Assembly (NCBI GenBank): GCA_001247695.2
Contig: LGRX02028911.1
Span: 1 to 64,000, forward strand
Length of the DNA stretch: 64,000 nucleotides
Direction: 5' to 3'
Origin: Cymbomonas tetramitiformis
Taxonomy: Eukaryota; Chlorophyta; Pyramimonadophyceae; Pyramimonadales; Pyramimonadaceae
Shown here: positions 20,439-50,024 of the stretch, one piece after another
Numbering within the stretch: the stretch's first letter is position 1
Layout: the number at the start of each line of letters is the position of its first letter
Position numbers and translations under genes: made by a program
The notes under the pieces: generated by a model
Seen by the model: only the letters and a program-made list of their open reading frames with translations
The model's database searches: none
What the model was told of the DNA's origin: nothing

Positions 20439-20878
20439 GGTTATGTTAGACCACAACGCACCACTGCCATCTCTGATGAAACGACAAATTTCAAATTAGC
20501 CGCTAAAAGCACTTTGAACTGGCAGTCAGCGAAAATGTTTGAAAATTGCGACTTGCTTTTACGCTAACCCTCCGCAGGTCGGGCCGGTTTCAATTTTAAC
20601 TCGCCGAAACCTTTTATGATTGGGAATTCTTTTACGATTGCCCTCTCGGCCTTTCATTTAACTTAAATGTTGAAACGCGACCGTTAGTTATCACATCGCT
20701 CTGCCAAAATTTGAGGGACGCCTTAGATTTTAGGCAAATTACGAGCATTTACCGCGGAAGCGCTGGCCAATTTTTTGAAAATTAACAAAACTTAGAGAAA
20801 ATCTTCATCTCAACCCCTAGGAGAACGTCTTGCGCAACATCGTCGCCTTCACCGCCACCAACGGTCCGAAGGTCTACC

Positions 20879-23800: not shown

Positions 23801-24883
23801 TACACATTCTATATGTCACCTCGGCCGGCTATCACCTTCTCACAGCCGGCCTATGCCAGTGCCACGGCACCGGCCAATGCCTCACCTCAGCCAGCCTCCG
23901 GTGGTGCCACGGCACCGGCTACTGCCTCACCTCAGCCGACCTCCGGTGGTGCCACGGCACCGGCTACTGCCTCACCTCAGCCGGCCTCCGCCAGTGCTAC
24001 GGCACCGGCCAACCACACACCACATTTGCCCTCCGGTGGTGTCACCGCAGCTCCCACCACACTCTGTGAGCCTGCAGCTGCCTCCACACCGCCCCTGGGA
24101 CACAGTGCCGATGAGGCGCTTGTGGGCACGCCCACCGATCACACCGTCTGTACTGACGGTGCAACCACCGCTGACACCTCTACATCTCTCAGCACAGCTC
24201 TCGGGGCCGACACTACAGTGGCCTCCGAGCAACCGCCTACACTCGGTGCCCCTGACAGCTCCCTAGCCCCCTTGGAGTGTACATACCCCGGGCTTGAGAG
24301 TGTTGGCCGGTGGGCCGATGTCTCCGACTCAGGCTCTGAGTCAGACACCGAGGGCTATCCGCCCCAACACACACCTCCTCCTCCTCTTCCTCCTCCAGTA
24401 TCCGACACTGACGGTACGGTGCCTGCTCAGCCCACTGCCGATAGGGCAACTACACGGGCTACAGCGGGCACCCTGCCTGCATTGGTGGACACTGACCGGC
24501 TGGCTGCTACCTCAGACACACACATGCAGCCCCCGGTCCCGTCCACAGTGCAGGCCTGTGCCGTCACACCGGATTTCCAGTTCCCTCCTATCCCTGAATC
24601 TCAGGAGGACACCTCGGAGACCACTACTAAGTGGAAGCAGTTCATGGCAGACACCCCGATCCGCACTGACACACCTCGGCCACGGCCAGACAGCTCACCC
24701 TCCCCAGAGCACTCTCAGTGGGATTTCTCAGTTGTGCCATCTCCCTCCTTCCAACAGCTTAATCAGTTCCTGGAGAACTACACCCTGACTCACCCCTCAT
24801 ATTGCACCAGTGACCCTAATGAGGATTGGGCCCAGTTTGAGGTCTTTGATGACCACCATTTGGGCCCCTGGGGTCAGCATTGA
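20879..24883 (+). pseudogene. copia Gag region, long and repeat-containing
   Basis: The ATG at 20879 opens MSTFTPTTTPGSQPP. The frame changes near 21630 (into DLDTPQHYLTFNEH), near 22740 and near 22840, the last two in C runs. The order is: a helical N-terminal part, a Gag-like middle (FNEHRLKDEPYDGISN), a Gly/Lys linker (GKGGKGGKGGKG), a possible Cys motif (HPCRSCKYKYNK...GCPC), a short coiled coil (ELAALRQEVAQLRA), four SEDTLDTA-type repeats at about 23381-23470, one strongly hydrophobic segment (FHVAVLLALLHITLTYTFYM) near 23757-23820, and 15-residue SGGATAPATASPQP repeats. It ends at TGA 24881-24883, in the same frame as pol. Confidence 0.75.
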
Positions 24884-27800
24884 GATCTACGACCCTGCGG
24901 TTGCAGCGCCGTGGGGAGAGACCTCAGCTGCACCGACAGTGCCCCGCACTGTCCCCACGGCACACCGGTCTTCCTCCCCCTGCTTGGGAAAGGCCGCCGT
25001 GCCTCCAACACGCACGGACACCTCCTTGTAGATTCAGGAGCCTCACATCTCCTCCTGAACAACAGGGAGCTCTTCACTGAGTTGTCCCCGTGCACCTCCA
25101 GCATGACCACAGCCTCGGATCAGCATTACAAGCCTCACAGTGTCGGCACAGCCTCCATTGATTTCCAGTACACCGACGGCACTTGGATCACACTCCCCTT
25201 CCTCCAAGCCTTCTATGATCCAAATGCCCCAAACCTCCTCTCAGTCCGCCAGATGCTCAGACACGGGGCCCGCTCCCCTGACTTCATCGACCTCACATGG
25301 CACCACGGTGCTTCTCTCTTTGACCTCTATGACACTGGCAGAGACTATGTTGTACACCCCAGCAGCTGGCGAGCCACCCCATCTGCCCACTCCATAGCAC
25401 AGAGGAGACCCCTCCTGCAGCCTGCCCCTTCGGAGCTTGCAGAGAAGGGCACAGTCGACTGGATGGTTGCTAGGTCCGCCTACAGAGAGTTTGCTCAGCA
25501 CAGTCCACATGGCTATTGTGACACAGACCTCTACACGGACGGCATCCCCTACCCACGGGGTAACACACAGTGCCAGCACTACTACTCCCTCGAGGACCCT
25601 GCTGAGGATCATGTCTGGTGCGGGCGCTCTTTCTGGGCCAACCCGCCCTTCATCAACTCCATCATCCAAAGGATGTTGATGAAGATGCTAGAGGACTTCT
25701 GGTTAGACCCTAATAACACCTCATACACGGTGTGTCTTCGGAAGTCACCATCTGCAGCCTGGTGGCCACTCACCTATCACTTTCAGGAGATAGCCACCAT
25801 CCCAGCAGGCACACCCGGCTTCTTCTCCCGCCCTCGAGCTGGTACCTACTCCCCCCAGGACCTCACAGATGCAGGAGAGGAGGGCGGTGCTGACCGTGTC
25901 TTCATCCAGGGGGCCCCGTTCGACACCATCATCCTTTTCAAGGATGCCACCACAGTCCCCAGGATTGACCCTCATCAGTACCTCCATGCCTGTCTGGGCC
26001 ACTACTCACACCAGTACATTGCTCACCTCTTCTCACAGGGGCTTCAGTTTGCAGTGCCCAGACGACACCTCTCCATGAAGACACTCAGGACTATCCTGTC
26101 AGGCTACGGGTGTGCTCATTGCAACACCTGGAATGCCAAGCGCCCAGGACCCTTTAATGTATTTGACAGAGCCAACCGCAGACCACCTCCAGCTTTGCCA
26201 GCCAGCCACCGGCCTGTCAAATGGGAACAGTCCAGGCCATTTCAGCACATATTTGCTGACATTTGGGGCCCATGCAAACCCCCTGGCTACGACGAGTCAG
26301 TCTTCATCAGTGCCTTTAAGTGCCCCGTCACTAAAAAGGCCTTCGGGTATGCCTCACCTTCTAAGGGAGGCCAACACTTCCACCTCCAGATTGTCCTTGA
26401 TGACATTCAGTCCCACGGCTTCACACCAGAGACCATCACATTCCACACAGACTGTGCCACAGAGTACACATCGGAGGAGATGAAGACACTCCTCCGACAG
26501 TACCGCATGCGTCATGAGACCGGTCCGCCATACATGCACGAGTTCCAGGCTCAGATTGAGGTGCTCTGGAGAGACATGCAGAAGATCATGAACAGCACCA
26601 TGCGCACATATGATGCCCCGCTGTACACATGGCCTCTTGCTGCACTCCATGCCATTAACACAGTCCTCAATGTCATGCCTAACAAGCACATTGGGATGGA
26701 CACACCTCACCTCAGATACACTGGCCGTCACTTCGACTACACCGAGCTCCGGCCCTTCTGGTCCGAGTGCAATGTCTGGCAGGACCCCGCACAGCGCTCT
26801 AAGGCAGGAGCTAAAGCTGACACTTCGGCTAAGCTACAGCCTAAGAGCAAGCCCTACCGCTATGTCGGGAATCTCACACCTGGCAACTATCTATGCCTTG
26901 ACACAGTGAAAGGAAAACTCAAGGCTCTCTCTAGGCCTACGTTTGTCACTGACCCTGCTCTCATGGCTAAGACACTTGCCAACACACACAACACCCTGGT
27001 TGATCCCGCCTCCACAGCTATCTTCACAAAGAAGCTGTACCCCATCCGACGCCCCGCAGCCCTCTCCTCCCCCGACATCCTCGAGCTTGCATGCAGCACC
27101 CACGAGTCAGAGACCTTTGCCTATGTCAAGGTCCAGTGTGCTAAACTCAGACATCCAGTCTGGGTAAAGCTCATACACTATCTCCAGCTGGCCAAAAGCC
27201 ACTATGCCACTCTCATCAGCTTTCTCAAGCACAGACACAAACATGGGGCACCTAATGTCTTTTACCCGTGTTTTGCTATGTGCTCGGCTAAGCCAGCTGA
27301 CCGACAGAAGTATCACCCTGCAGTCATCGTGTCTGTAGACCATAAGCCTCAGGTCCAGCACAGATACCAGGTGTACTTCGACTCTGCTGACTCACACTCC
27401 ACCCAGTATGCAGACACCGATGCTGTCATCATCTCCCCAGACCAGAAGGCCATGCTCCTTGCCCTCAGGGATGCAGACTCGGACCCCGCAGACTTCCCGA
27501 GTGATGCCTTCATGGACGAGCCAGACCCTGCCACATACAGACAGGCTCGGCTCAGCCCTAATTGGAGACAGTGGCACAAAGCCATTCAGTCAGAGATCGA
27601 CGGCATACTTCAGCCAGACAGGGCCGATCCAGTCACCGCCTTCCCTCCAGGCTCCACCGTCCTCCCCAGTAAGTTTGTCTTTAAGCTCAAGAAGCTGACA
27701 GACGGCTCCCTTGACAAGTTCAAGGCCAGATGCACCACCAGAGGAGACATGGACCGTACCTTCTATGAGGAGGCGGAGACCTTTGCCCCTACACCTCAGC

Positions 27801-28785
27801 TCACCACCTTCAGACTCCTACTAGCGCTCTGCCTAAAGCACAGACTCATGCCATACCACTATGATGTCTCTCAGGCTTTCCTCCAGGCTCTAATACCTGA
27901 GGATGAGCGGTACTATGTCAGGTTTCCGAAGGGGTACATTCATCCCAAAGGATATGTAGGTGCCTATATGAAGAAGGCACTCTACGGACATCGGACCTCA
28001 GGCAGACTCTGGTCAGAGACCGCACACAGATTCATGACAGACCGCTACCCTACACTCAGCAGGTCCACATATGATGAGTGCCTATACATCGGCTGGATTG
28101 ACACTCAGCTCTTCATAGTCCTCATCTATGTTGATGACTTCATTGTGGCTTGTGCCGATGAGCTGTCCAGAGCCCGCTTTCACACTGACATCATGTCCAC
28201 ATTTCAGGCCACCTACTCTGGTGTCCTCAACCAGTTCCTCCAGCTCAGAGTTGATGTTCAGACTGAGACACTTCCTACAGGAGAGTCATACCCGACCAGG
28301 ATTGAGCTTTCACACGAGCGGAGCATCACAGATCTGTGTGCTAAGTTCAGCATAGACACGGATAAGCAGCCACCTCGATCACCGATGACAGAGGGTCTCT
28401 CCCTCCCCATTCCCTCACCTGATACCATTGACAGGTCCATTGAGACACCCCTCAGATCCTTGATCTACTCTCTGCTCTGGTTAGCCAGGACAGTCAGACC
28501 CGACATATATTACCACGTCACATATCTGGCTCAGTTCTGCCACCAGCCCACAGTTGAAGCCCTCACCGCTGCCAAACGGATTCTACACTATGCCTATTCC
28601 ACCAGGGACTACACACTAGCTATGGCTATTGACTCTGCAGCACCCCAGCTCACCGCATTTTGTGACTCAGACCATGCAGGAGACACTGCCACACGGAACT
28701 CAGTTTCCGGCTACTGTCTCTACTTTCACGGTATGCTCATTGACTGGTGGTCAAAGAAAGCAGAAGTCATGCACTGCCCTTCACT
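24884..28785 (+). CDS. pol: copia Pol: protease, Dam-like methyltransferase, integrase, RT, RNase H
   Basis: Pol is in frame with gag after a single TGA and has no ATG before the protease (HLLVDSGASHLLLN), so its expression needs readthrough or a frame change. Next comes an extra domain of about 140 residues at 25440-25860: CDTDLYTDG, QHYYSLEDPAEDHVW, GRSFWANPPFINSII and FFSRPR, resembling phage Dam N6-adenine methyltransferases. Then come the His-Cys zinc region (LHACLGHYSHQYIAHL ... CAHC), integrase residues (FADIWGP, HTDCATEYTS, QAQIEVLWRDM), RT with FKARCTTRGD, YHYDVSQAFLQ and IYVDDFI, and RNase H (FCDSDHAGDTATRNS). A shift near 28780 moves the end into another frame. Confidence 0.88.
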
Positions 28786-29273
28786 CTACAGAGGCAGAGT
28801 ATGTTGCCATGTCAGAGGCATGCACCTCCGCCCTGGCCATCTATAACACACTGACAGAGTTCTTTCCCTCAGATGAGCTCATCACCATCAATGTAGACAA
28901 CTCAGCAGTTCAGACTCTAGTCACTCAGCGGGCACTCTCTTCTAAGCTCAAACACATTGCGGTTCGGTACCACGCGGTTAGGAACTGGTGTCAGGGGCCC
29001 CTCAGGAAGTTTACACCGGTCTGGATTCCGACTGATGACAATCAGTCTGACATTTTCACAAAAGCCCTCCCTATCACCAAACACGGGGTTCCCATTATTG
29101 ACAAGTTCACTGCCCGCCTATTGGATATTAAGGACCGGCGTGTTAAGCTGGTTGAGAAGCTACGAGCAGCTGAAGCACAGCAGCTACATGCCCAGCAGCA
29201 ACAACTACAACAACAGCAACGACAGGATGAGATTGTCCTAGCATCACTGCAGCGGCAGAACTTGATAGGGTGA
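28780..29273 (+). pseudogene. copia RNase H C-terminal part, shifted frame
   Basis: This continues RNase H in a second frame from about 28780: LHSTEAEYVAMSEACTSALA, NVDNSAVQTLV and DNQSDIFTKALP, the normal copia ending. It is followed by a Gln-rich tail (QQQQLQQQQRQ) and a stop at 29273. The shift is a single-base change near the tctacagagg region. Rejoined, the enzyme would be complete. Confidence 0.85.
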
Positions 29274-29459
29274 CCCGAGGCGAGGGAAGGTGGGCCTCTG
29301 CGAGCATGTCTATTTCTAAAGACCCGGAGGCACCAATAGGACCAGTTCTTGCCAATGCAAATGCCTGATATATGCTTGCTCCGTTCTTCGAGTATTATGA
29401 TATTTGCTTGTCTTACATTACCATGCCACTGCCACACACATCCACAGAATGTGGTGGTG

Positions 29460-29812
29460 TCACGGGGGACTAGATATACCGTACTGCCCCCTGTATGACA
29501 TTCCTCGATGCATGTGACAGATGACTGCATTATTATTCGGCTCGAGACCGCGAGTCATAGCGACAGAGACCGCGAGTCACAGCGATAGTGACTGCGAGCC
29601 ACGTGTTAGAGTACTCGAGCATCACCATAGCCGTACTCGTACAGACTTACACAGCGCACGTAGCATAAGCTACTTAGACTCTCAGACTCTCATATGTTAT
29701 ATCTTTTACAGACATATCACCGTTTGAGCCTCATATTTATGCGTACAGCGATAGTATTAAAACACGGATATATAGAATATTCTACCCTATATGTGTTTCA
29801 TACTATCCATTA
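29460..29812 (+). repeat. copia 3' LTR
   Basis: 353 bases, nearly identical to the 5' LTR. A purine-rich GTGGTGGTG string precedes it and could serve as the plus-strand primer. Confidence 0.92.
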
Positions 29813-31394: not shown

Positions 31395-31822
31395 TGTAGG
31401 AGTCTACACTTTGACTTCTTCTCTTCTTTACGGTTTCGGACTTATACTATTCTACACTTATTAAACGACCGCACGAGGTATGCTTACGGTTGGTCAACTA
31501 CAAGACTTCGGTTTCGTAAATCTTAATAGCTATGCTTTTGCTTTCAAGTGTATGCTTTCAATACACAATATACAGCGGATACGGCTCTTACTTTTTATGT
31601 TACAATTCTCAGTTCAGTTCATCTCTCCGAAACGGGTTACTCTTAGAGTTCTTATACATTCAGGAACTCTTTCCATAACTCAACTGTACTGAGTACTCCG
31701 TACAACAGTCTAGGCACCTCACATCAACATCATTCTGATCGGTCCTACTGTACTCCGTACTGAGTACTCCTGCGTTTTATACTTAGCCGTTTTTCTTGCT
31801 CTTGTGCTTGCCTCCTAGCACA
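31395..31822 (-). repeat. gypA 3' LTR
   Basis: Reads TGTAGGAGTCTACAC ... CCTAGCACA on the plus strand, so both strands show TG...CA ends. I saw no difference from the other copy. A tract of C after 31827 (purine run on the element's strand) is the polypurine primer. Confidence 0.95.
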
Positions 31823-32543: not shown

Positions 32544-34270
32544 TCAATCGCTAAGACCACTCGCGTCAGATTCCCATCCGCCCTCAGGTATGATCGTCAC
32601 CTCCGCTCGCACTCCCGCTAACGCTATCGGTTCCGGCTCAAACTCGGGCGGGTCACTCTCAACAACAGCTGACTGGACTAAAACGCTCATCTCGCTCAGA
32701 TCCTCCCTGACAAGCAGTTCAGACAGGAACGCATGCACCTCTTCATGTAGGGTCAGGTTGTGGAAAAGCTGTTTTAACAGTGCTGACGGAATCCCATACA
32801 AATTCTCTCGCGCTCCCATGCCCTTCGCGAACACACCTCCGGCTCTCATCGCGCGCCCTCCTTGCGCTACTTTCTCGTGCCTACCGTGCTGCCGGAAGAA
32901 CTCGCAAGGCGTATCGGAATCGCACACTCGCAAGGGTGTGCGCAACGGAACGTTGGTCCAGATGTGCGTGGGCTTCCTGTATGCGGTCCCGTATTTGCAG
33001 TACGTGACGAGGTGCGGAGCTGGTAGATTGCTCATGCAGCGACGCGTGTGCAACCCGTGGGGCTCTCTTCCCCTCGGGTTCTCAATGAAGTATGCTTCGG
33101 GCCTCAAGTACCGGATGATCTCCAATGTCCTACGAACTCGCCTGTCCGCAGCACGCAAATCTCGGATGCCTACCGTCTTCGCTTGGCTGTACTCTGTGCA
33201 AGGTGGGCTAGCCCAGACTACGTCGAAGTGTCCTGGTCTGAACTGTCGATAGTCCCATCGCATGATATCCTCGCAATGTGTGGGGCCCCACTTGGGCTGA
33301 ATGTCTACAGCAACTACTTCGCTGTTGGGAAATTGCTTAGTGAACTGCCTCTCGACTGACCCGGTCCCACAAAACAATACAAGAATCTTAGACTGGCCGA
33401 CTGGCTCCTTCTCAAGTGCTGCGGCTCCGTTGACTGGCGGCAGGGTGCTCTGAGCAGATACTCTCGCGAAAGTTCCTACTTCCTCATCAAACCTCTCCTC
33501 TGGCACCCATGGCATTGCTCCGTCTACCTTGAGCTCCTCCGATAGCGTGGTCCATACCGCTCCTGCGGACTCGTCGCGTCTCTTACGGACCCTAAGCTTC
33601 TCTCGCTCCACTCTCTTAGCCTCGATCCTCTCAAACTCCAACAACGCTCGGTTGGGAACACCGGGCCTGCCGGCTCCGTCCCACTCCAGATCCTCTCGGG
33701 TCTTCCACTCGTTCTCACTGCGGGGCATTCCTGTCCACTTGACCAGGTACTCTGTCCACCTCCTGCCCTGGCGCTGGCGCGTGCGCGAACGCTCCACCCT
33801 CTCGACGTGGGTTTCCTTGCGCCCGCTGACGTCCAACGGAGGAGGGGGAATCTCCTTAGCTCTCTCAACGAAGCGGCTGCCCGACTCTACTGGCGAAAGC
33901 CGGTCCACGGTAAACACATCGTGCACTTTCCACTGCTTAGGCGTCTGCAACCTATAGGCCGACGGTGCGCCTCTATCGCTCGCGGGAAGGGCCATCTGCC
34001 TGTCGCTGTGAAAGACTTCCAGCACCCGAAGGGGCCCAAGGCGCTTCTTAAGCAATTTCTTGTGCAACCCGCGGTCGCCCGGCTGGGTGAGGTGCGTGGC
34101 ATCCACCCAAACCTCATCGCCTACTGCGTAACTCCTGGACCTGTGACGCGCGTCGTACTGGGCGATCTGTTGCTGCTGAGCTAAGAGCAGCTTCTCCCTA
34201 GCGAGCTGCAACTGGCGAACAAACTGGCGGGCTGTCTCGTGGGCTGTACCCTTTTTACTGCCGCGCCCCT
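32544..34270 (-). CDS. gypA Pol C-terminal part: integrase tail, chromodomain, C5-cytosine methyltransferase-like
   Basis: In frame from GTAHETARQFVRQLQ, it encodes the integrase tail (YAVGDEVWVDATHL), a chromodomain (RRWTEYLVKWTGMPRSENEW) and, after a linker, a methyltransferase-like domain. Motif I is ILVLFCGTGSVE; motif IV is VVWASPPCTEYSQAKT with the Pro-Cys pair; motif VI is AYFIENPRG (ENP rather than ENV). TYCKYGTAYRKPTHIWTN and LYGIPSALLKQLF follow. The last two blocks resemble phage cytosine methyltransferases. Stop at 32544. A one-base shift in a G run near 34270 separates it from the preceding frame. Activity is unproven, but the key Cys is present. Confidence 0.85.
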
Positions 34271-36911
34271 CCCCCCCTTAGCTCGGCCTCTCCGTGATGC
34301 AAGTGCTGCCTCCACGAAGAAGTCCAGCTGAGAGGCCGGAGCGTGACCATACGTCAGTTCAAAAGGGGTGAATCCCGTGACGGCGGAACGAGAGTCATTA
34401 ATGGCGTACTCGACCGGGGTACACCATAAATCCCAATCGTGCTGGTTGGCGTCGACGTACGCGCGCAACATGCGTTCGACCGTGTGGTTTGTGTGCTCTG
34501 CCTGCCCATCACCTTGTGGGTGGTACGGCGTGGTAGAGGCAACCTGGACTCCCATCAACCGATGTAGCTCGAGATGCATCTCATCCCTGAAGCGGGAGTC
34601 CCGATCACAGACGATCTTCATGGGAGCGCCGTGCAAACGCCACACTTGGTCGAAATACATGCGCGCGATCTGTGCAGCTGAGCTGTCAGCGTAAAGCATG
34701 GGAACTACGTGCACCATCTTGGACAACTTGTCCGTGAAGGTAGCAAACGCGTCGTACCCTCGCTCTGTGCGGGGCAGCCCAGTGACGAAGTCGATACTAA
34801 CCACTTGCCACAGTCTTACTGGGACTTGCAGGGGGTTAAGCTGACCGTCTGGATACCCGTTGCGTGGCCGGGTCTGTTGGCACACAACGCAGGATTTGCA
34901 CCAGTCGGTGACATCCTTGCTCATGCGTGGCCACCAAAAGCGACGGGATACTCTGTCCAGTGTCTTATCCCTTCCTGTGTGCCCTGCTGCTGGGGACTCG
35001 TGTGCTTCGCGCATCACCAGCTCTCTGAGGGGGGAATCCTGAGCTAGCACTAGCTGATACCGCCCTTCTGCCACTCGCCATATCATGTCGTCTACCATGC
35101 GAAATGTGTCTGTCCTCTGATGTGGGGCTGCGATCAGTTCCTCCTTCAACGAGCTGAGGTACTGGCTGCGTTCGTATTCCGCTTGCAAGGCGCGGACGAA
35201 CTCATCAGCCTTCAGTGGGCCTGATGCTGCCCTGGCCCTTGCTGCAACCCCTGTAGTGACTAAAGGCTCGTCGGGTTCTGCCTCACTGTCCTTTCGCGCA
35301 GGCGGCGCTCGGGGCTTTGCCCTGCTGGCTGCTGGGGCCCACACCAGAAGGACCGGCCAGCGCAGCGGGGGTCGACCTCCATCAGGGGACTCGAAGAGGT
35401 GGTTGGGACGACCTTTTTCGTCCTTCGTGTCAAAGACTTTGACCGGATGAAGCCCATACTTGGGGTGAATCAACCGCCTCCAGGGGGCGTCATAGTCTGG
35501 TAGAAGGAACATCGCCGAGGTGTTTTCCGGATCGGCGCGCCACTCAGCAAGGAAATGCCGAAGAATTCTTTCTATCAAGTCTGAATCCTTCGTGTAAGGG
35601 GGGTTGCACCAAACGTGTTTCCCGCGCCACTTTTCCTTCAAGCAATCGGTCCAATAGGTATCAACCTGCCGGTTAACGCCCATGGAGTCGCAACACGCGT
35701 CAACGTCAAACACCCCGTACTGGGCTGCTATCTCCTCAAAGCGCTCCCTGATCAGCTTCCAGTCCTGGCGATCTACGACCTGGTCGTAGTGGGAGCTACT
35801 TTCTGGGGGCTTAACGGGCTCAGGTACCTTTCCGGCTGCCTTTGGATGACTCTGGGCCTCAGGGTGGGGGAACTTCGGGTGACTCTGGACTTCTGCTGTG
35901 GCCTGTTCCCTAGCTCGGTCTGCTCTGGTCATGACTGCTAGCGATTCGGCATCCCTCAAGGATTTCTCGCCTACTGCTAGGGTGGCAGCTGCGTCCAGCC
36001 AAAGGGCCGGCGACTCTACCCACGTGAGCCCATTCAGATGGGTGAGCTCACCAATGACCGGTGCTGGACTGGTGGGAGGGAAGGACTCGTCCTCGGAATC
36101 ACTATACTCGAAGGTGGCGCCTAAGACAGATGTGGGATCCTCGTCCCCTTCGCATCTCTTGCCTTTCGGCTCAGAGTACTCGGGTCCATCAGATCCATCG
36201 GTGGTGCGATCCACTGCCCCGAGGACAGAGGTAGGATCCTCGTCCTCTTCGGACCCCTTGCCTGCCGGTGCGGAGTCTCTGGGCCCATCCGTGGCGCGAT
36301 CCACAATCCCTTTTTCCTTCAACCCTTCTCTGGCTGACATTTCCTGATAGTCTGGTCGCCGGGACTGCGCGTCTGGTACTACTAAACAGCGCCCTGGCAC
36401 GTGCTCCATCTGATGAACTCCTACCTCTACCAAGTCCTCGTACCAGCGAGCCTGACGTCGGCTGAGCTCCCTAGCTGGGGCGAAGAGCCACTGAAGGGGT
36501 TTATGGTCTCCCATGAGCTTAAATGATGTGAAAATCAGATAATGTCTCCAGGTGACCGTGGTGCAGTGATGGATGGCACAAAGCTCCCGTTCCCCAGCGT
36601 GATAGTTCTGCTCTGCGCTGGAGAACTGCCGGCTTTCAAAGGCCAAGGGCTGTAAGCCTCGTCCCTGATCCTGCATGAGTACACCCCCTAGTGCTACTCC
36701 ACTGGCATCTGTCTGCACAAAGAAGGGTCTGGAGCCGTCTGCTGCACCCTTTTGATCGGGTAGGGCCAAGGCTGGGGAGGAGATCAAGGCAGTTTTTAGC
36801 TGTTTAAATGCTGCCTTTTCATTCTCGCCCCAGGTCCAGTCCACGCCGGATTTGGTGAGGCGGGTCAACGGGTACGCGATATCTGCGAAGTTCTGGATGT
36901 ACGTACCTCCG
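34271..36911 (-). CDS. gypA Pol middle part: RNase H, Dam-like N6-adenine methyltransferase, integrase
   Basis: Opens YIQNFADIAYPLTRLTKS, then RNase H (FVQTDASGVALGGVLM, AEQNYHAGERELCAIHH, GDHKPLQWLF). An extra domain at about 35250-35790 carries GVFDVDACCDSMGVNRQVD, YWTDCLKEKWRGKHVWCNPPY and FLLPDYDAPWRR. DVDACCD and NPPY fit the cofactor and catalytic motifs of Dam-type adenine methyltransferases. DIRS retroelements carry such a domain at the same place after RNase H. Integrase follows: HESPAAGHTGRDKT...CKSCVVC, SIDFVTGLP, KIVCDRDSRFRD and HPQGDGQAEHTNH. A 4-base GTAC duplication near 36906 puts this out of frame with the RT part. Confidence 0.88.
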
Positions 36912-38311
36912 GTAGAAGCCACACATGCCCAGAAACTGTCGCACGTGTGTGACAGTTTCTAGGTCTGGCCAATCGCGTACCGACGCAACCTTATCCTGCT
37001 GTGGACGACATCCATCCCGATCCACCACATGCCCTAGGAACCGGACTGATCGCTTGCACAATTTGACTTTCGACTTTTTGAGGTAGACTGAATTCTTTCG
37101 GCATGCCTCCAGGACCTGGCGGAGGTGGTCGAGGTGTACCTCATGGGCGCTCTTACCCGGAACCTCAGCCGAGAAAATCATGATGTCATCTACAAATACT
37201 CTGCAAAAGGGTAGGTGCCCGAGGTACTGTTGCATCATCCTTTGCCAGGTACTTGGGGAGTTTGACAATCCCATAGGCATGACCAACCACTCGTACGCTC
37301 CAAAGTGCGTAGTCATTGCGGTTTTCTCCACGTCCTCTGCTTTCATAGGGACCTGCCAAAATCCCCAAAGGGCATCCATCGTAGAGAAGACGGTAGCCCC
37401 TTGTAGATCATCTAAGAGACTCTGGACATCCGGGAGGGGGTACTTGTCCTTGACTGTGATCTCATTGATCTGTCTGTAGTCAATGACTAGACGCAACTCC
37501 TTGGGATTACTCGGCTTGGGGACCATCAGCACAGGGCAGCCCCACGGAGAGGCCGAGGGTCGTATGTACCCTTTGGCTAAGAGCTCATCTAGCTGTTGCC
37601 GGAGTTGCCGCAACTCCTCCTGCGACAGCTTGTACCCTCGCCGGTGCAAGGTGTTCCCATTCCAATCTGGCCTGAGCCGGACGCCGGACTTGAATTCCCT
37701 TGACTGGACTGATTCCGGCAGCTCTGTGCAAATGAAATCTGCGAACTCCTTTTCCAGGTCCCTAAGCTGCTGCCAGATTTCCGGCGACACCGTCTCGTCT
37801 ATCTCGTCCTCCGGCGGTTCCGGGGAGGCCTGAGCAGTCTGTGGGGCTGGCGGCGAGGTAGTACCTGGCGGGGCGGCCGGTACCGGCGGGTCTGTGGTCT
37901 GCGGAGCTGGCGGCGGGACTGGTGCCGAGGCTCGCGACTTCTGACTCTGAGGACTCGGGACAGTGGGGACTTTTGGTCCCGGTGGCTGCTCGGTGGAGGG
38001 GCCACTTTCAGCACCAGGCTGACCGACTGCTGCGACCTGGTCACGCCAACGCACTCGCTTACGCCGTGCTCGGGGTCGTCGCTCCGCGACCAGACCCCGG
38101 CCCTGCTGGAGCGCCGCGGCTGCCTGCGCGTGCCAGGTGGGTGGCTTCCCGGCCGCGTGATCCTCTATCGCCTGTCTACGCACCGCTGGCGGAAGCAACG
38201 CAAATGCTCCGTTCGCCTCCTGTTTGCTAGCGAAAAAGCTGAGAGGGTCAGGGTGATCCCCGGCCTCGTCGACCGTACTCGCAAATCCCATCTGGAAAAT
38301 GGCGAGGCGAT
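36912..38311 (-). CDS. gypA Pol: reverse transcriptase
   Basis: After a Pro-rich linker (PPAPQTTDPPVPAAPPGTT) come Ty3/gypsy RT blocks: GYKLSQEELRQLRQQLDELL, YIRPSASPWGCPVLMVPKP, LRLVIDYRQINEITVKDKYP, FSTMDALWGFWQVPM, YEWLVMPMGLSNSPSTWQRM and the catalytic FVDDIMIFS, ending VRQFLGMCGFYRRY. All residues needed for polymerase look present. It joins upstream, across the 4.6-kb insertion, to the frame at 42897 (MHRL / AIFQMGFAS). Confidence 0.92.
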
Positions 38312-38379
38312 CCGGGATCGTTCTTTTCGTGATCCGGAACGGGATCGATCCCGGGAGGGAAGTTTCTTACGGGATCGAT

Positions 38380-38500
38380 CCTGGAACGCCCCGGGTACGG
38401 GAACGATCCTGGAACGCTCCAGGTACGGGAACGATCCTGGAACGCTCCAGGTACGGGAACGATCCTGGAACGCTCCAAGTACTGGAACGATCCTGAATCG
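38380..38500. repeat. 28-bp minisatellite GGTACGGGAACGATCCTGGA...
   Basis: Three to four tandem copies contain GGAACGATCC and TGGAACGCTCCA, a partly palindromic unit. Related ACGATCC and GGAACGC strings also occur near the other end of insertion C (42785-42870), as subterminal repeats would. Confidence 0.85.
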
Positions 38501-39250
38501 ATGGGGGGACACTCATGATAAGTCCAAGGGTCGATTCAAGCATTCAAGGCAAGTACCATGAACCGCACATTAAAAAAAAGGTAGACTTTCACAAGGCTAG
38601 AAAGCAGGAGGCAAATTCAAAAAGAAAAAAATCAACAAATCCACATAAATAGATACACCTTTGAGTACACAAGCTACTTCATTTGCATATGTTCATACGG
38701 TCTCCACTAAGATGGTATCACTGGCTATTATACTCTTCTTCTTTCTCATCTATACTTCCCACTCCTATAGCGTTTTGGTGTTGGGGTATTTTTGTCTAAG
38801 TTGCAAGCCACTTGGTTGGTTGCGCAAGCTTCACACGCGATTGTGTCGTATTCCATCTTTTAACTTGGGTAAACATTCTTGAATACTCCTTGCTGAAGGT
38901 GTTTGGCACCTCTGTCTGCACATGCGATAGTGCCACAGTGAGTAGCAGTTGAAAAGAACTTATGCGCAAAAAACAACAAAGGGTAAATAAGTACTTACCA
39001 CAGCTTGTGACTTCGTGCATGAGTTCTCATTTATTTCATACTCGACGGCCTAGTCTTTCAAGCTTGGGCCACTGGCCATCTGGCTTCTAGAGTTTTCTTT
39101 CCCTTTTCTTCTATTGCTCGTGCTGATTTTTTTGTCTTATTATCCGCATTTTTTTCTTTTTGGGAAGGTGATGCTTGCTTGTTGGTCTCCGAGTAGCGCA
39201 CGTCCATGTTTTGAGTGGCCATCCTGAGGAACGAATCGTGGTAAAGCTCA
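38501..39250. other. AT-rich part of insertion C
   Basis: Short frames only. The minus-strand frame at 39058-39300 encodes a Lys-rich peptide (KEKNADNKTKKSARAIEEKGKK) after an upstream (GAGCT)-type tract. No homologue is recognised. Confidence 0.4.
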
Positions 39251-40320
39251 ACACACATAAGCTGACATGCTGAGCTCAACTGAGAAGCAAAGCAAAGCAA
39301 ACAGCAAAGTTGGGCAAAGCTGAGTCGAGTTGAGCAGAGCTTAGTCGAGTTGAGCTAAGTTGAGCTAAGTTGAGCTAAGTTGAGCTTAGTTGACACGCGG
39401 ACAGGAGCAAAGCTGACACGCTGAGCTGATATAAGCTAACAAGCTAAACTAAGCGGAGCTGACAAACCGAGTTGAGCTGACACACAGTTACAGGTACGGG
39501 ATAATACAACATAGACTGGAATATGTGTGTATATGTGTGTGCCTGTCGTGTTATTCCTATGCTAGGATACGCGTGTACCTCTCTGTGCGTGTGCTATGCC
39601 TGTGGTAGGATATATGTGTATCTCTATACCACTGTTATGCCTGTGATAGGATATGTGTGTTTTTTTTTCAAAAGCTAAGCTAAGCTAAGCTCAAAAGCTA
39701 AGCTCAACTCAGGCGTTGAGTTTGGCGCTAAGTGCTGAGCTAAGATAAGCTGAGCTGAGTTGTTTTCACTCATAGAGTTGAGGTGAGTTGAGTTGAGTTG
39801 AGCTGAGTTGAGCTTAGCTGACACGCTGACGTGAGCGAAACTGACACGCTTAGCTGATATGAGCTCAAAAGCTAAGCTCAACTCAGGCGTTGAGTTTGGC
39901 GCTAAGTGCTGAGCTAAGATAAGCTGAGCTGAGTTGTTTTCACTCATAGAGTTGAGGTGAGTTGAGTTGAGTTGAGTTGAGTTGAGCTGAGTTGAGCTTA
40001 GCTGACACGCTGACGTGAGCGAAACTGACACGCTTAGCTGATATGAGCTCAAAAGCTAAGCTCAACTCAGGCGTTGAGTTTGGCGCTAAGTGCTGAGCTA
40101 AGATAAGCTGAGCTGAGTTGTTTTCACTCATAGAGTTGAGGTGAGTTGAGTTGAGTTGAGTTGAGTTGAGTTGAGCTTAGCTGACACGCTGACGTGAGCG
40201 AAACTGACACGCTTAGCTGATATGAGCTCAAAAGCTAAGCTCAACTTTGGCGTTGAGTTTGGCGCTAAGTGCTGAGCTAAGATAAGGTGAGCTGAGTTGA
40301 GTTGAGTGAATGCGTAATAG
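39251..40320. repeat. AGCTGAGTTGA satellite with 174-184-bp higher-order unit
   Basis: Pentamers GTTGA and AGCTA/AGCTG run throughout. From 39661 the landmark GGCGTTGAGTTTGGCGC recurs at 39712, 39886, 40070 and 40249, giving units of 174, 184 and 179 bases. The length differences come from different counts of GTTGA. The matching minus-strand frames (QLNSTQLNSTHLN) are repeat translations. Confidence 0.92.
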
Positions 40321-40637
40321 AGTGAGTAATGAATTTTTAGTGAGTGGTCCGGAGTGTGGGTTGTGAGGTTATGAGAGCGAATACAATTACCTTAATGCAC
40401 GTTCGTTCTTCACAGTCCCGCTCCTTTGAAGTTTCTGCCTTACCATACCCAACACCCCATGCTGTGTGAGAATGGCTTGGTTCCAAAACCTCAAAGAACA
40501 TAGTGAAAAATAACATGCTTATCTTGATCTTATGTAAGACCAGAAAGTGCGCAGTACCATACCATACTTTTATAGTAATCACACATATCCTAAAAGATCT
40601 AAAACACGGGAGCACATATGTGGAAAATTATTTTTGC

Positions 40638-40923
40638 ATCAAAATATTACACCTCTTTGTGGCGCAACGGGAGACAAGTGGTCACAGACACAAGAGTGTC
40701 AGACCTACTCAAACCCAAGATGCCATACATCACAACAAGGCCAATACCTTGTTGCTCGCGGATTAAGGGCGCTCCAAACAAACCCGCAGACCAAGGGTGC
40801 AGGCGCCTTCTTCTACAAGAGTAGAAAGCGTGACCACAATGGTTCCTTCAATGGCGCAATCACCAATGTGTGGCCAAGGGAGTTCGTTTTTGCAACGCCA
40901 CAAAGGAGGTGTAATATTTTGAT
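40638..40923. mobile_element. ~286-bp MITE-like element inside insertion C
   Basis: ATCAAAATATTACACCTC with TTTGTGGCG at 40638-40665 is repeated in inverted orientation at 40896-40923, with one mismatch. No clear target duplication. The interior is noncoding. Confidence 0.55.
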
Positions 40924-42896
40924 ACCTATGCTAAATAAAATATTTCTCATAGGGTTGCAGGATTTGCACCGACCAAATAAGATATGCAAACAGCTTATGT
41001 GAAAACCGAGCTTACAGTTGATATTCGTTATAGAATACTAAAAGTCAATAGCTAAAATAAGTCTATACATTAAAACAAAACAGTTTGATAAAAAGAAAAT
41101 AAAGAAAATAAAAAATAAACCACCACTCTAAGTGGGGAAGGATTACCTAACTATTACCCAGCAGTTCAATCGCAATGGTTCCACCGCGAGCTGCGAGCTG
41201 GTTCAAGGCACAAAGGATTGCACAATAACAGTGTCCTCCCCACTAAATCGCATATTTAGACTGAGGAACTCTAGGTTCTACCTACAGTGAAGGCAAGGAG
41301 CGATGTTGCTGTCCTAGGCACAGCAGTTCAATCGCAATGGTTACCTGGCACGATATATCATTTAAGTAATATATCAGGTATACGAGGCATATACCTGTGT
41401 TGACTATGCAAGGCCATCCCTCATCGAGTCGTTGAACAAGTGAAAAGCTCCCTGCCGTCACTATCCCGACACACACCCGACTCTCTTAATTAAAAGAAAG
41501 ACTAAACCAAGTGCGATGCAATAAAAAGCTCAAACAAGGACAAGAGCGTACCTTAAATTGGCTGGGTTGGGTTTCACCCCAGGGCGTGCCGAAGGCTAAC
41601 GCACTCCCAGCCTCATTTGAGCGAACTGTCTATCTAAAACAAAGTTCGCATCGTCGGACCTTAAAAACTACAAGCACCTATATCACGATACTCGCAATTT
41701 ATGCAAGTGCAAATCGCGCTACAAGTTGCACTGCTACTAACTGTAGTAGCAATGACTGCAAAAGACATGCTACGGAAAGCATGGAGACATACCTTAGATT
41801 CCCAGTGTTTCCACACCACCAGAGCCCAAAAGCAATTGGGGTGGTAACTGGGATCGGTGCGTCGGATATTTATATCCCGCCTCCTCGCCAAGAGCCATGG
41901 GGCGGTTGTCATGCAATTTTGAGTTGCGACACTTGGAACCTAGACTGGGCCTTTTTAGAAGCTAAAAAGGCCCAGTTTTTCACGATCCAGTAAAAACAAG
42001 CAAACAGGCACACACACTTGTAAAATTCTATCGAAGAATTCAATTTGAAAGCACATTTTTCCAACTAGCTAGCCTAAAGGCAGATAACGCACACAAAACA
42101 AGTACTTAAAAATCACTTAATCATCACGTAACGTGGGAGCTCCTAGCCCCACATCAAATGTCGCGCGTCCCTATACCAACTCACCTGCCCTTCAAGATAT
42201 CACTATGATTCAAGGTGCGCAGGTTGATCCAGCTTTCCGATCTTACTAAAAGGTTGTGAGCGCACCTGGCGGGAATGATGTCCGCTCATTCCGTGTGTGA
42301 CCAACTGCTTCCAACCATTTTCGAAAACGTGCTCATGGACTTCATCTGCGAACACTGTAAGTGAATTACGAAAGGAAAATAGGTGCGCAGGCAGGATCTA
42401 CTCTCAAAATCTCGCACGAAAATTATGGGGTAAATCATAGTTTTGGGCAAGCGACAAAGTGCGTGGGTGTGTGGGTTACGTAAACACCAAACGCATCTTG
42501 CTTGCGGCGACCACGCTATGACCAACCACCTGCGGAAAATATACGGTACGCGAAAATATCAGAAACTATTTTATACTAGCAACACAATACATCAAATTAT
42601 CTAGGCTGATCTAATCAGAGTTTGCAGTATGGTTTTCGGCTCACGTGCTTTCAAAATTCGGAGACGCACGTAAGACTAAATGGGAAGTCAAGAGCTCACG
42701 ATACTGTGTCCATGCGCCATGGCGCGCCAGTGACATTTCTGCTGACATCCGATGTCATTGACATTTCTGATGTCATCGATTACTGGAACGCGAAGAAACG
42801 GTGCAGTGCGTTCGGGATTTCCGATGACGGTTTACGATCCAAAGCGAAACGAGAACGCGGATCGCGGATCATCACCATCGTTATGAGCACGCTCTC
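40924..42896. other. right part of insertion C
   Basis: No supported gene. A perfect 15-bp hairpin with a 3-base loop lies at 41944-41976 (ACTGGGCCTTTTTAG ... CTAAAAAGGCCCAGT), followed by T5. Splice-like GGGTTTCACCCCAG occurs near 41570. Frames here are short and unrecognised. Confidence 0.45.
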
Positions 42897-43325
42897 AGGC
42901 GATGCATGAACGGGGATCGTGACGTGTCGTCTTTGTTACACGAGCGCTCCGCAACGGGGGGGAACGGGGAACAGTCGATTACGCATTCAGAACTGAACGC
43001 CGAATTCCAGATGCCCTGTGGCCTAATATCCTCGACCACCGCCCCTACTCTCTGCAAATGACACGCTCCTTCCACGTCACTGTAGCCGGACTCGGAACTG
43101 TCCGAGACCAACCCTCCCGGCCCCTCAGACTCATCAGCTCCGTCCGGCACCGTTGCGCTGGGACGCACGCTGACTTCACTATCCTCGGACCCGGAGGAGG
43201 GTTCTGACGCTAGGCCTGCTACAACATCGTTGGGGGAATCTCCGTCGGAGTCTCCCCCCCCCTTGCTGCAGGCCAACGCGCCAAAAGTCCCATCGGGGCC
43301 GAGGTAGACGACGAAAGCCTGCTCC
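42897..43325 (-). CDS. gypA Pol linker between protease and RT
   Basis: Open throughout. It joins the protease frame across the CACTA-like insertion (LRTLRNRE / EQAFVVYLGPDGTFGALA). It is mostly acidic and Ser/Gly-rich (SGSEDSEVSVRPSA, SDSSESGYSDVEG) and ends SPFMHRL at insertion C. The first 15 residues look structured; the rest is probably a flexible linker. Confidence 0.75.
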
Positions 43326-43368
43326 CCCTACAGATCTGCAACCCTTGGGAAAGCTTTCCATAGGCATG

Positions 43369-44560
43369 GAAACGGGTGAAAACCCTATGGAAAAGCCCTA
43401 TGGAAAAGGGAAAATGAATACTGGAGGTTATCTCGAAAACAAAAAATTTGAGTTTCCATCCCTATACTCACCCTTGGGAAGGTTTTCATTATTTTCCAGG
43501 GCATTCCATAGGGTGATTGTGCTTTCCATAGGGTTTTCCAAGGCATTCCATAGGGATGATTGTGGCGTCCATACCTATGGAACGTTTTCCATAGGGATGG
43601 AAGGAATCGTATGGAAAATATCGTATGGAAAACCCTATGGAAACCCAATGGAAAGTCCTGGAATATCAAGCGTTTTCCGTACCTATGTCATCCCTATAGC
43701 ATTCCTATGGAAAGCCGTATGGAAAACCCTGTGGAAAAACACACGGATATGTTCCATCCCTATGATCACCCTATGCTGGCCCTATGGAACCTAATAGGTC
43801 ATACCTATGGAAATCTTTTCCCCAGGCATGGTACCCCTTGGGAAACCTGTTTCCATACGGACGGTGTACCTATGGAAGCGAATTCCATAGGCATGGTATC
43901 CCTTGGGAAGCAATCTTCCATACGGTCGATATACCTATGGAACATTTTCCACAGGTATGGTATCCCCTGGGAAAGATCTTTCCATACGGACATTATGCCT
44001 ACGGAAGACGGGCCCATACACTTAGCGTCCCTTGGGAAATAGGTTTCCATACGGCCGACATACTTATGGAAAGGTTTTCCACTGGGTGGCTCACCTTTGG
44101 GAAAGATTATTCCATAGGATGGCTATACCTATGGAAACACAATTCCATACGTGCTGTATACTTATGGAAAGGTATTCCATACGGTTATTATACGTATGAT
44201 TCCGTTAACAGCATCAGGAGTATACCTATGGAAACGCTTTCCGTAGGGTGACCCGCCCTATGGAATTCATATTCCATACGGTTATTATACTTATGGAGAG
44301 CATTTTCCGCAGGTGTACTATACCTACGGAAAGCTTTTTCCCCAGGGATACCATGCGTATGAAAACCGTATATTATAGGTATGGAAAACATCTTTCCCTA
44401 CGTATGTTATCCGTATGGAAACTATTTACTATAGGCATAGTATAGGTATGGAACCAGTAGATATATATGGTTTCCATAGGCACGATATAGGGATAATATC
44501 GGGATGCTATACGTATGGAACTTAATTAATATTTACTTTCCATAGGCACAGTAGTGGGGC
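43369..44560. repeat. CCTATGGAAA/TTTCCATAGG motif array, left arm of B
   Basis: Dozens of copies of CCTATGGAAA and its complement, plus CCTTGGGAAA and TTCCATACGG variants, in both orientations at intervals of 15-40 bases. Pairs flanking 20-30 bases make many potential hairpins. The long frames here are repeat artefacts. Confidence 0.92.
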
Positions 44561-46010
44561 AGTATAGGGATACTGTACGTGTAGCACTGACTGTGTAGCA
44601 TACATATTGCACATTAGCAACATGCAGTGTGTTCACTATGTTTCCACTATGCGAGATAAACAAAATACTCGAGCATCTTTACTACGATTAACATGTATCT
44701 AGCTAGGCAGAAAGGAATACGAATGGGACTATCAAATTTTATCATACCAACGAATACACAAAATTATGTTCTACTCGTGCACTTTCTATTTACAATACGC
44801 AAAATAATGTTCTTCTCGTGCTCTTTCTATTTACAAGATGCCAACCTAAACGTTGACGTTGTACTCGAGGCCGTCGATTTTCTCCATCTCGCTTCGCTCC
44901 AAAACAACCGATCTAAAATGGAAAGTAAAGAGCCAACACTTAGTAAAAAAGCGGAAACGCACAAAAGAATATTCTATTGAAAACATAAAGGACTTATCAA
45001 CCTAGAATGTTTGAAGGGATGCTTGAAGTTGACGTTGTACTCGAGGCGGTCGATTTCCTCCATTTCGCCCTCCTCGAAAACAGCCAATCTGAAAAGGAAA
45101 GTAAAGAGCCAACACTTAGTAAAAAGCGGAAACGCACAAAATAAACCTTTATTGAAAACATAATTAACAACCGAGCAACCTCAAATAAATGCGAATATCA
45201 ACGCGAGATGAAAACCTAATATGACTTCGCCACGCGAACGTTTTCAGCGGATCTGAAAAACGAAACCAACCAACTAACGTTTAGTAAAGAAGAAAGAAAA
45301 TAGCAGTCGTCAACGAAAGAAGCAAAGGAAAGTAAAAGGGGGATGTGGAGTGAGTTGGATTTGAACCAACTATTTCGAGTGCAAAGGACTCGCGGGAATT
45401 TCCCGTTCACTCCTAGTCAAAGTTTCACGCATGCCAAGTATGAGCGCGCGAAGCACACACAAAATAATACACACGCATAACCAAAACATGCACTGCAAAC
45501 CAGTGCCATATTGCAACCTGTGAGAATTAAAAATATCACAGCACGCAACTCACTGGCGAGGCTGCTGCAACATTGCTGACGGCGAACTGTGAAGAGTGCA
45601 ATAACGTGAGTTTGAACTTGACCGTTCAGAAAAATCGAAGTGCTCAAAAACTTTGCCGTTCAGAAGTCACATCGGATCGACTCGTCATGCGAGCACGATC
45701 GACGATGACGACGATGATGACGATGCGATGCGATGTCTCAGACTCTCTCACATGACATTGCATCGGAGATAATCGACTTATAAAATTTAAACTGGGATTA
45801 AATGTAATCGACCCTTCGTAATGGTCTAGAGGTGGCCGTCGTTCTCAGTCTCAATCGAACCTATGAGATCCCGATTTTTTTTGAAGTTCCAGAAATAAAA
45901 TCTCGACTAGCCAAAACAGCGCATACAGGCCGCAATTTTGTTTTTTTGCCCCCCTCGTCAGTGAACAAATGGTTTGTTTTCTTGGGGGTGATCGAACAAG
46001 CTCATTTTAT
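44561..46010. other. B left arm, motif-free segment with duplicated blocks
   Basis: Two diverged direct copies of about 135 bases begin GTTGACGTTGTACTCGAGGC, at about 44855 and 45027 (172 apart). A shorter duplicated block, TCTCGTGC(A/T)CTTTCTATTTAC, is near 44775-44836. There is also a tRNA-like sequence (separate entry) and (GACGAT)n at about 45700-45740. This stretch lacks the CCTATGGAAA motif and might be an older insertion into B. Confidence 0.5.
45346..45413 (-). tRNA. tRNA-like sequence (tRNA pseudogene or SINE-type head)
   Basis: On the minus strand, GGAGTGA pairs with TCACTCC (7-bp acceptor). The arm GTTGG-TTCAAAT-CCAAC is a perfect T arm with a 7-base loop containing the B-box TTCAAAT. 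CGAGT-CCTTTGC-ACTCG forms a 5-bp anticodon stem. The D arm is short and odd (CGGGAAATTCCCG), and base 33 is C rather than T if the anticodon is TTT. At 67 bases it is shorter than normal. A decayed tRNA or a tRNA-derived element is more likely than an active gene. Confidence 0.5.
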
Positions 46011-46920
46011 TTGGGGGGGTTTTTGGCGGCGGTAGGGGGTCTTCCATAGGGGTTTCCATAGGGATAGGCTCTGGATTTCCCATAGGGCACACCACTTTTT
46101 CCACAGGCTCCGGATTTTCCATAGGGTACATTGGTGATGTTTTTTAACCTGTTTCCAGGCCATTCCACAGGTATGGACGCCACAATCATAGGGATGATCT
46201 CTGTGGCATTCCTTAACAGTGTAATTCTGCATTTTCCATAGGCATTTTCCAAGTGCGGCGTGTTGCTGTTGTAGGGTCCAAAAAGGGCCTGTTTTAACCT
46301 GCCCTATTTTTCATTTTTTTAATTCCATCCCTATAAATAACCTATGGAATCCCGAAAATGGGGTGAGCCAACCTATGATCACCCGGTGGAAACGATTTCC
46401 ATTGGGGCCTGTGGCAAATTTTCCAGAGCCATTCCATACGATTTTGAGATAGGGGATTTAAAAGTGCCCTATGGAAAGGTTTTTGCCCTATGGAAAGCCA
46501 ATGGAAATGCGTTCCCATAGGTTTTACATAGGGTTTTTCCATCCCTGTGTAATTATTTCCAGCCCTACGGACGCCACTATTATAGGGTTAACACCTCGAC
46601 CGTTCATAGAATATCAACCCAATATCCCTATGGAAAGTTCAAGTTATTTTCCCATAGGTTGTATAGGGTGGGCATCCCTATGGAACCAGAATACAGCATT
46701 CCTAACGTATGTCCACCCTATGTCCACCCTACGTTCATGGTATGGAAGGTATTGAACACCTTCCATAGGGATGTCATTGGGCGGACCGCCCTATGGAACA
46801 CATCGTATTGTTTCCATGCCTATGCCCACCCTACGCCCACCCTATGACCACCTCATGATCACCCTATGCCTAGCAAATGAAAAGTTAAAAAGGAAGCAAC
46901 GGTTCCAAGTAGTCATGCGT
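46011..46920. repeat. motif array upstream of the B transposase gene
   Basis: The CCTATGGAAA/TTTCCATAGG motif resumes at 46041 and continues to about 46870, with CACCCTATGCC forms at the gene-proximal end. It would include the promoter and leader of the transposase gene. Confidence 0.8.
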
Positions 46921-46972
46921 GCTGGTATGGATGGTGTGTTGTGGGCCAGTATTAAACAACCACGGGGTCGAC

Positions 46973-49981: not shown

Positions 49982-50024
49982 CATGCCTATGGAAAGCTTT
50001 CCCAAGGGTTGCAGATCTGTAGGG

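Follow-up and report, generated by a model that had tools for sequence, protein, structure and literature searches.

GypA, a Ty3/gypsy retrotransposon family of Cymbomonas tetramitiformis with a Dam-like and a C5-cytosine methyltransferase domain in one Pol

Introduction

What would a retrotransposon do with two methyltransferases? The question is raised by a stretch of 64,000 nucleotides from the green alga Cymbomonas tetramitiformis (contig LGRX02028911.1, positions 1 to 64,000; hereafter the window), which holds copies of GypA, a family of long terminal repeat (LTR) retrotransposons that encode two unrelated methyltransferase domains in one Pol, a Dam-like adenine methyltransferase domain and a compact C5-cytosine methyltransferase (C5) domain. 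Single methyltransferase domains in retrotransposons are already known; unusual here is that one element family joins a Dam of DIRS type to a C5 of phage type and keeps both intact, constrained and in many copies. An earlier note on this locus had proposed a Ty3/gypsy chromodomain element with both domains and knew of no other; none is described in the available portions of the open literature examined, a scope outside which lie subscription papers, preprints and Repbase.

Anatomy of GypA

The Pol order of the copy in the window, GypA1, as seen in a Pfam scan, is reverse transcriptase, RNase H, Dam-like domain, integrase, SH3-like domain, chromodomain and C5 domain, all encoded on the minus strand. 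The reverse transcriptase lies at 37026-37523 (frame 36822-38366; PF00078, E 3.1e-31) and RNase H at 36428-36733 (frame 34184-36958; PF17917, E 2.6e-28). The Dam-like domain with its motifs FDVDACCD and WCNPPY follows at 35333-35779 (PF05869, E 2e-8; PHROG 111, annotated as DNA methyltransferase, E 9e-12), and then the integrase, an H2C2 zinc finger and a catalytic core, at 34517-35035 (PF17921, E 5e-24; PF00665, E 8e-5); the core scores 23.3 bits, under its cut-off of 32.6, and the integrase matches the Ty3 structure 7q5b at E 1.3e-49. The chromodomain is found at 33684-33809 (frame 32547-34277; PF00385, E 9e-8), and the C5 domain with LFCGTGSVE, SPPCTEYSQ and ENPRG at 32697-33449. Upstream of this region are a gag-end frame with a CCHC zinc knuckle (51916-52779; PF00098, E 2.6e-4) and a pro frame for a retroviral-type aspartyl protease (49691-52237; PF13650, E 2.3e-7), which is linked by tblastn to the gene model P0141 and is broken near 50024 by an insertion.

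The boundaries of GypA1 agree with the proposed class. Comparison of the window with itself reveals two LTRs in the same direction, the 5′ LTR at 58556-58983 and the 3′ LTR at 31395-31822 (both minus strand), which are 428 bp long and 100% identical. Both have TG...CA ends, the 5-bp target-site duplication GGCTC stands just outside each, and a G-rich polypurine tract precedes the 3′ LTR. Together with the order protease, reverse transcriptase, RNase H, integrase and chromodomain, into which the Dam-like domain is set between RNase H and integrase, these features support a Ty3/gypsy chromodomain element. GypA shares with DIRS elements a Dam-like methyltransferase after RNase H; in place of their tyrosine recombinase it has an H2C2 and rve DDE integrase.

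From LTR to LTR, GypA1 occupies 31395-58983 on the minus strand, 27,589 bp including two later insertions that are exposed by P0141, a model spanning protease to reverse transcriptase. The first, of about 6.7 kb (43325-50023), has 43-nt terminal inverted repeats and is delimited by the inverted match, its flanks and the broken P0141 match; the second, of about 4.7 kb (38289-43009), is delimited by the broken match of P0141 and P0124. With both subtracted, GypA1 proper measures about 16 kb. The copy is thus young but broken. The coding frames that the earlier note had placed at 32544-36911 are present on the minus strand, at 34181-36922 and 32544-34211, but the element is far larger; the single polyprotein it envisaged exists in other copies, where two loci (L106, 1604 aa; L109, 1628 aa) run from RVT_1 through PF00145 in one open frame by Pfam, whereas the coding part of the window copy (32544-38366, minus strand) consists of three overlapping frames, for reverse transcriptase, RNase H to integrase, and chromodomain to C5.

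Some further features of this copy deserve mention. The inverted ends of the 43325-50023 insertion are perfect, and it sits inside a young GypA1 copy; a 184-nt unit occurs in four tandem copies at 39601-40321 within the second insertion. The box GGAGTACTCAGTAC, present twice per GypA1 LTR, might serve in regulation or be a site of modification.

Relatives of the two domains

The Dam-like domain exceeds the curated PF05869 cut-off of 28.1 bits in all five copies scored (34.5 bits in GypA1; 31.1, 33.6, 37.4 and 47.7 in the others), which together with the PHROG 111 match bears out its proposed identity and position. A homologue was found in the same genome in L118, where Pfam detects reverse transcriptase and Dam, the latter after the reverse transcriptase and an RNase H-like stretch. 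With domain limits chosen for this comparison and E-values that assume a nominal database size of one million letters, the L118 Dam is 38-39% identical to the GypA Dam over 159 aa, with E between 1e-31 and 2e-31 (39% and E 2e-31 for GypA1), and 31% identical to that of GypA2, the second GypA copy in the window (E 8e-22); the L118-GypA score of 107 bits compares with at most 26.9 bits in 500 shuffled controls. The RNase H and a downstream tyrosine-recombinase-like frame of L118 were read by eye and Pfam finds nothing there, so the label 'DIRS-like' rests on layout. The parallel with DIRS elements drawn in the earlier note is thereby strengthened, the Dam following RNase H in both. Dams on viral contigs are further removed, at 31-32% identity over some 60-90 aa in 5 of 42 stretches.

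The window also contains a Ty1/copia element at 20084-29812 on the plus strand, with terminal repeats (20084-20438 and 29460-29812) that are 98.6% identical. Between its protease side and integrase lies a Dam-like stretch with a PF05869 score of 25.1 bits, below cut-off, and a PHROG 111 match at E 5.1e-5, a third, distant member of the retroelement Dam-like family. The Dam-like domain is thus a retroelement-borne family common to several element classes.

The C5 domain of GypA1 falls a hair under the curated PF00145 cut-off of 22 bits (21.9 bits, E 1.3e-4) and matches PHROG 757, annotated as DNA methyltransferase, at E 9.6e-17, which upholds the claim of a C5 domain after the chromodomain. Across five copies the PF00145 score is above cut-off in two, GypA2 (23.6 bits) and L109 (24.5), and below it in GypA1, L106 (19.9) and L119 (13.2), while PHROG 757 matches at about 1e-16 in both copies scanned (GypA1 and GypA2). 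The domain has the C5 methyltransferase fold together with motifs I, IV (PC) and VI, with the exception of subfamily GypA4, which has ETP at motif VI. The model of the domain shows a near-complete C5 fold, in which 210 of 251 residues align with those of DNMT3A. Both the C5 and the Dam-like domain are supported by profile and by fold. A fold search places DNMT3 first, at 12-18% identity, and a PDB profile search lists Dnmt2 first, then Dnmt1 and HaeIII, with no Dnmt3 among 34 matches.

The same compact domain occurs free-standing in the phage family (PHROG 757; IMG/VR L026-L105). Free-standing metagenome proteins are up to about 50% identical to the GypA C5, the 80 viral loci retained of 569 are 29-39% identical, and, unlike in GypA, no retroelement sequence is seen upstream of these metagenome proteins. 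On viral contigs, the GypA1 C5 sequence used as a single query had no matches; an alignment used as query recovered many. The domain was placed in a rapidly built tree that holds 96 of the 141 rows prepared, none of them Dnmt3, supported by the SH-like approximate likelihood ratio test (SH-aLRT) rather than bootstrap and rooted at the midpoint; free-standing rows were the first 50, and the set excludes two near-copies, two viral rows that contain stops and all rows shorter than 150 aa. All 20 retroelement-linked rows fall into a set of 38 (SH-aLRT 95) together with 5 Cymbomonas/EukProt rows and 13 others, and the 58 free-standing, viral and Tudor-linked rows fall outside it. The simplest reading of this midpoint-rooted tree would be one capture of a phage-family C5 followed by spread.

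Chromodomain-C5 fusions are also seen in four metagenome proteins (P0006, P0012, P0030 and P0041; 43-54% identity); in P0012 and P0041 the chromodomain scores just below its cut-off. This class is therefore probably not confined to Cymbomonas. Three further metagenome proteins of 414 aa (P0084, P0085 and P0095) have a Tudor-looking stretch followed by a C5 that belongs to the same broad family; a Tudor Pfam match, weak, was obtained in P0095 only, of two scanned, and the three share their own branch of the C5 tree with P0080.

What the two domains may act on

We give an even chance to the view that, in this highly abundant and recently active Ty3/gypsy family, the DIRS-type Dam-like and phage-type C5 domains serve as accessory Pol methyltransferases that would act on the element's own cDNA. 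Most likely, both would do so in the particle or pre-integration complex, on the new double-stranded cDNA. The Dam-like domain would travel with reverse transcriptase and RNase H, while the C5 domain, tied to the integrase, might stay on the DNA until, and perhaps beyond, insertion. The resulting marks could protect the cDNA, mimic host DNA or determine which chromatin state the insert takes on. The data establish the element structure, the identity of both domains, the C5 fold, the kept motifs, the intact frames and the constraint; catalysis, DNA rather than RNA as substrate, timing and benefit are inferred from these. More speculatively, and with distinctly less confidence, GypA might constitute a double modification system of its own, placing adenine and cytosine marks on each new copy so that the host then treats the copies as its own, with a DIRS-type element as donor of the adenine enzyme and a phage-type source for the cytosine enzyme, the host alga being a feeder on bacteria.

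Two sets of results bear on whether the domains methylate DNA. The first is structural: for an AlphaFold2 model of 35276-35830 (pLDDT, the predicted local distance difference test score, 81.9), the nearest solved fold is an RNA-cap adenosine methyltransferase. It is conceivable, though not probable, that the Dam-like domain is an RNA methyltransferase that acts on adenosine of the element RNA, cap-adjacent or internal, and that C5 alone acts on DNA. By sequence, however, the domain matches Pfam Dam and PHROG 111, a PDB profile search with it gave no significant match to DNA or RNA methyltransferases, and the fold comparison may lack a solved structure for PF05869, the phage Dam family.

The second set concerns traces of cytosine methylation. 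The ratio of observed to expected CpG is 0.84 in the window and 0.84 in the coding part of GypA1. Among C>T singletons there is no CpG excess in GypA1 (1 of 13, with 3.1 expected; the 9 copies gave 33 singletons, of which a single copy accounts for 23) or in GypA3, the third subfamily (6 of 21, 5.7 expected; 54 singletons in 4 copies), and CHG counts of 4 (2.9 expected) and 7 (3.9 expected), respectively, are too few to judge. Pairwise comparison shows the same, with CpG making up 0.154 of transitions versus 0.240 of unchanged C sites in three copies of GypA1 and 0.230 versus 0.269 in GypA3. This null is weak because the GypA copies are young. An excess is visible in GypB, a second gypsy family of this genome (0.31-0.37 of transitions versus 0.21-0.22 of unchanged C sites).

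The CpG traces also bear on a somewhat less probable alternative, in which C5 works on chromatin after insertion: the chromodomain would lead integrase and C5 to marked nucleosomes, the target region would be methylated, and copies would settle in silent chromatin or build it, in the manner of a chromomethylase. The position of C5 behind a chromodomain in four GypA subfamilies and in the four metagenome fusions is consistent with this view, as is the fact that GypB combines C5 with a PHD finger, so that a reader plus C5 recurs in this genome. GypB, however, is a different family, and GypA copies show no CpG footprint. Moreover, judging by eye and by the residue roles in HP1, histidine occupies the first aromatic-cage position in GypA1 and GypA2. 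In plant chromomethylases the chromodomain lies inside the methyltransferase domain and a BAH domain is present. In GypA1, unlike these enzymes, the chromodomain (135-176) precedes C5 (268-428), Pfam scans reveal no BAH domain, and C5 is phage-type by PHROG; the chromomethylase resemblance suggested earlier thus comes down to a shared pair of parts.

Constraint and catalytic motifs

The earlier note had named loss of catalytic residues in all intact copies as evidence against its proposal. WCNPPY, SPPC and ENP are kept in all 12 GypA1 and GypA3 copies read, one of which misses the motif I regular expression, and NPP[YF] and PPC are kept in GypA4 (L119) as well. Between GypA1 and GypA3, the non-synonymous divergence (dN) is 0.093-0.096 for RNase H, 0.104-0.109 for Dam and 0.069 for the integrase; the chromodomain stretch and C5 each reach about 0.22. 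Synonymous divergence (dS) is above 2 or saturated; where it is finite, the dN/dS ratio of Dam is 0.034-0.053. Pairwise comparison of four GypA3 copies puts the C5 ratio at 0.118-0.273 for five of the six pairs; the remaining pair has a ratio of 0. These low ratios indicate that both methyltransferase domains are kept, with C5 the faster-evolving of the two.

It is rather doubtful that either domain, or both, lacks catalytic activity and instead helps Pol to bind or tether DNA. The shortness of C5, with scant room for a target-recognition domain, its PF00145 score above cut-off in two of five copies and the altered motif VI of GypA4 would fit idleness; against it stand the kept PPC and NPP[YF] motifs, the near-complete C5 fold and the invariance of PPC across 74 aligned C5 rows with 36-99% identity to GypA1.

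Copies and subfamilies in the genome

GypA2 is a diverged copy at 59640-63999, coding in two frames on the minus strand, with a Dam-like domain at 62194-62646 (frame 61633-63999, which runs off the window; PF05869, E 2.2e-7; PHROG 111, E 1.2e-10), a chromodomain at 60534-60698 (PF00385, E 5.4e-7) and a C5 domain at 59730-60314 (PHROG 757, E 1.6e-16; PF00145, E 4.2e-5). Further copies were sought in a Cymbomonas assembly of 851.7 Mb in 25,745 contigs (the published assembly measures 914.3 Mb; PMC10675990); candidate numbers from these searches are first-look counts, not copy numbers. A chromodomain-C5 query yielded 9598 candidates, of which 78 were scored, all printed as 100% identical; 12 of these GypA1 matches lie in frames of 2753-2759 aa and five, the window copy among them, in a broken frame of 577 aa. 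This common break (34184-34277 in the window) suggests a defective lineage that is still multiplying, or else a recurrent sequencing error. The protein query P0123 yielded 21,490 candidates, and all 40 scored contigs belong to GypA3; in each of the 40 the Dam-integrase and chromodomain-C5 matches lie in a frame of equal length on the same contig, with 15 frames of 2613-2618 aa. A PF05869 search gave 7257 candidates, and all 150 scored were above cut-off. One of these 150, L119, represents the fourth subfamily, GypA4, and has Dam (47.7 bits), integrase, chromodomain and C5 motifs in one frame of 1316 aa; its PF00145 score is weak, and the ETP at motif VI, where the other subfamilies seen have ENP, may reflect altered activity.

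Dam, integrase and C5 motifs share one open frame in 10 of 12 fetched GypA1 and GypA3 copies, and the two split copies were both picked for their 577-aa frame; since six of the 12 were picked from long-frame rows and four as best matches, this share is no estimate for the genome. In proteins, the JGI metagenome entry P0132 (1032 aa) runs from Dam through integrase and chromodomain to C5 without a stop; at 95-97% to GypA2 and from another assembly, it probably derives from the same species. By blastp, six of 151 collected proteins match both domains (P0123, P0128, P0132, P0135, P0136 and P0138), while P0134, P0140 and others have Dam with no C5 match; the Cymbomonas tetramitiformis proteins P0001-P0003 match the GypA C5 at 97-99%, and P0143 matches the Dam at 100%. 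The occurrence of both domains also in GypA2, the 12 fetched copies and P0132 shows that their pairing is not due to chance. A chimeric assembly or separate neighbouring genes, which the three frames and nested insertions of the window copy might suggest, is most improbable given the uninterrupted frames from reverse transcriptase to C5 in L106 and L109, the 40 concordant contigs and P0132; an artefact of one bad copy is ruled out by the GypA3 contigs, the fetched copies and the same two single frames.

Relation to known elements

The comparisons that follow refer to the available portions of the sources cited. C5 enzymes are described in LINE, DIRS and Gypsy elements, and Dam-like enzymes noted in DIRS (de Mendoza 2018; PMC5890265); according to a review, the Ty3/Gypsy and DIRS clades, taken together, include elements that code for Dam and Dcm. 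A close parallel is KnitGypsy-Dnmt3 of Klebsormidium nitens, like GypA a Gypsy LTR element with a C5 in the Pol frame under purifying selection; its C5 is of Dnmt3 type and said to be host-derived, whereas that of GypA is of the compact phage family and follows a chromodomain, and the text available mentions no adenine methyltransferase for it, in contrast to the Dam-like domain of GypA (PMC5890265). The dinoflagellate elements SymbioDIRS-Dnmt3 and SymbioLINE-Dnmt carry C5 in hundreds of copies per genome, and SymbioDIRS-Dnmt3 methylates CG; they differ from GypA in retrotransposon class and in their Dnmt-type C5, with no second methyltransferase mentioned in the same portions (PMC5890265). 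In DIRS1-like elements a methyltransferase directly follows RNase H, as in GypA, but these use a tyrosine recombinase (PMC3266345); a DDE integrase, LTRs and the C5 domain set GypA apart from them. In Ectocarpus, Tudor-Gypsy elements and a Sola1 methyltransferase accessory gene exemplify algal transposons with chromatin readers or their own amino-methyltransferase, the two not joined in one element as they are in GypA (PMC12477816).

In Cymbomonas itself, a chromodomain, RNase H and cytosine DNA methyltransferase were reported on three scaffolds with more than 10,000x coverage, and transcripts match the high-coverage scaffolds (Burns 2015; PMC5741210). These are likely to be parts of GypA or a sister family; they are given as coding regions, and the portions available describe neither an adenine methyltransferase nor an element. 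Gyaltshen 2023 mentions chromoviral pol genes, and the word 'methyltransferase' does not occur in its main text.

GypB was recognised when 20 loci (L006-L025) taken as candidate GypA copies were rejected as another family. It is abundant (e.g., L009:1085-8278), with frames of 2398 aa on four contigs and the order reverse transcriptase, RNase H, C5 (GYPCQDLS, ENV), integrase, PHD finger and an unassigned C-terminal domain; the median dN/dS is 0.062 for C5, 0.057 for integrase and 0.026 for reverse transcriptase. Its C-terminal 'DPWAGTG ... TSPWF', read by eye as an amino-methyltransferase, was discarded as such, with no PDB match at E 10; the stretch gave only phrog_3906 (unknown function, E 0.17) and an unrelated Pfam entry (0.017). 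With its C5, PHD finger and C-terminal domain, GypB may have arrived on its own at an equipment like that of GypA.

Perspectives

Nanopore reads exist for Cymbomonas (PMC10675990), and base-modification calls over young GypA insertions could directly show whether retroelements mark their own DNA. The Dam common with DIRS-like elements and the phage-family C5 suggest that retroelement methyltransferases have more than one source, and GypA, as far as can be read from its sequence, may be an element that chemically marks its own DNA copies.

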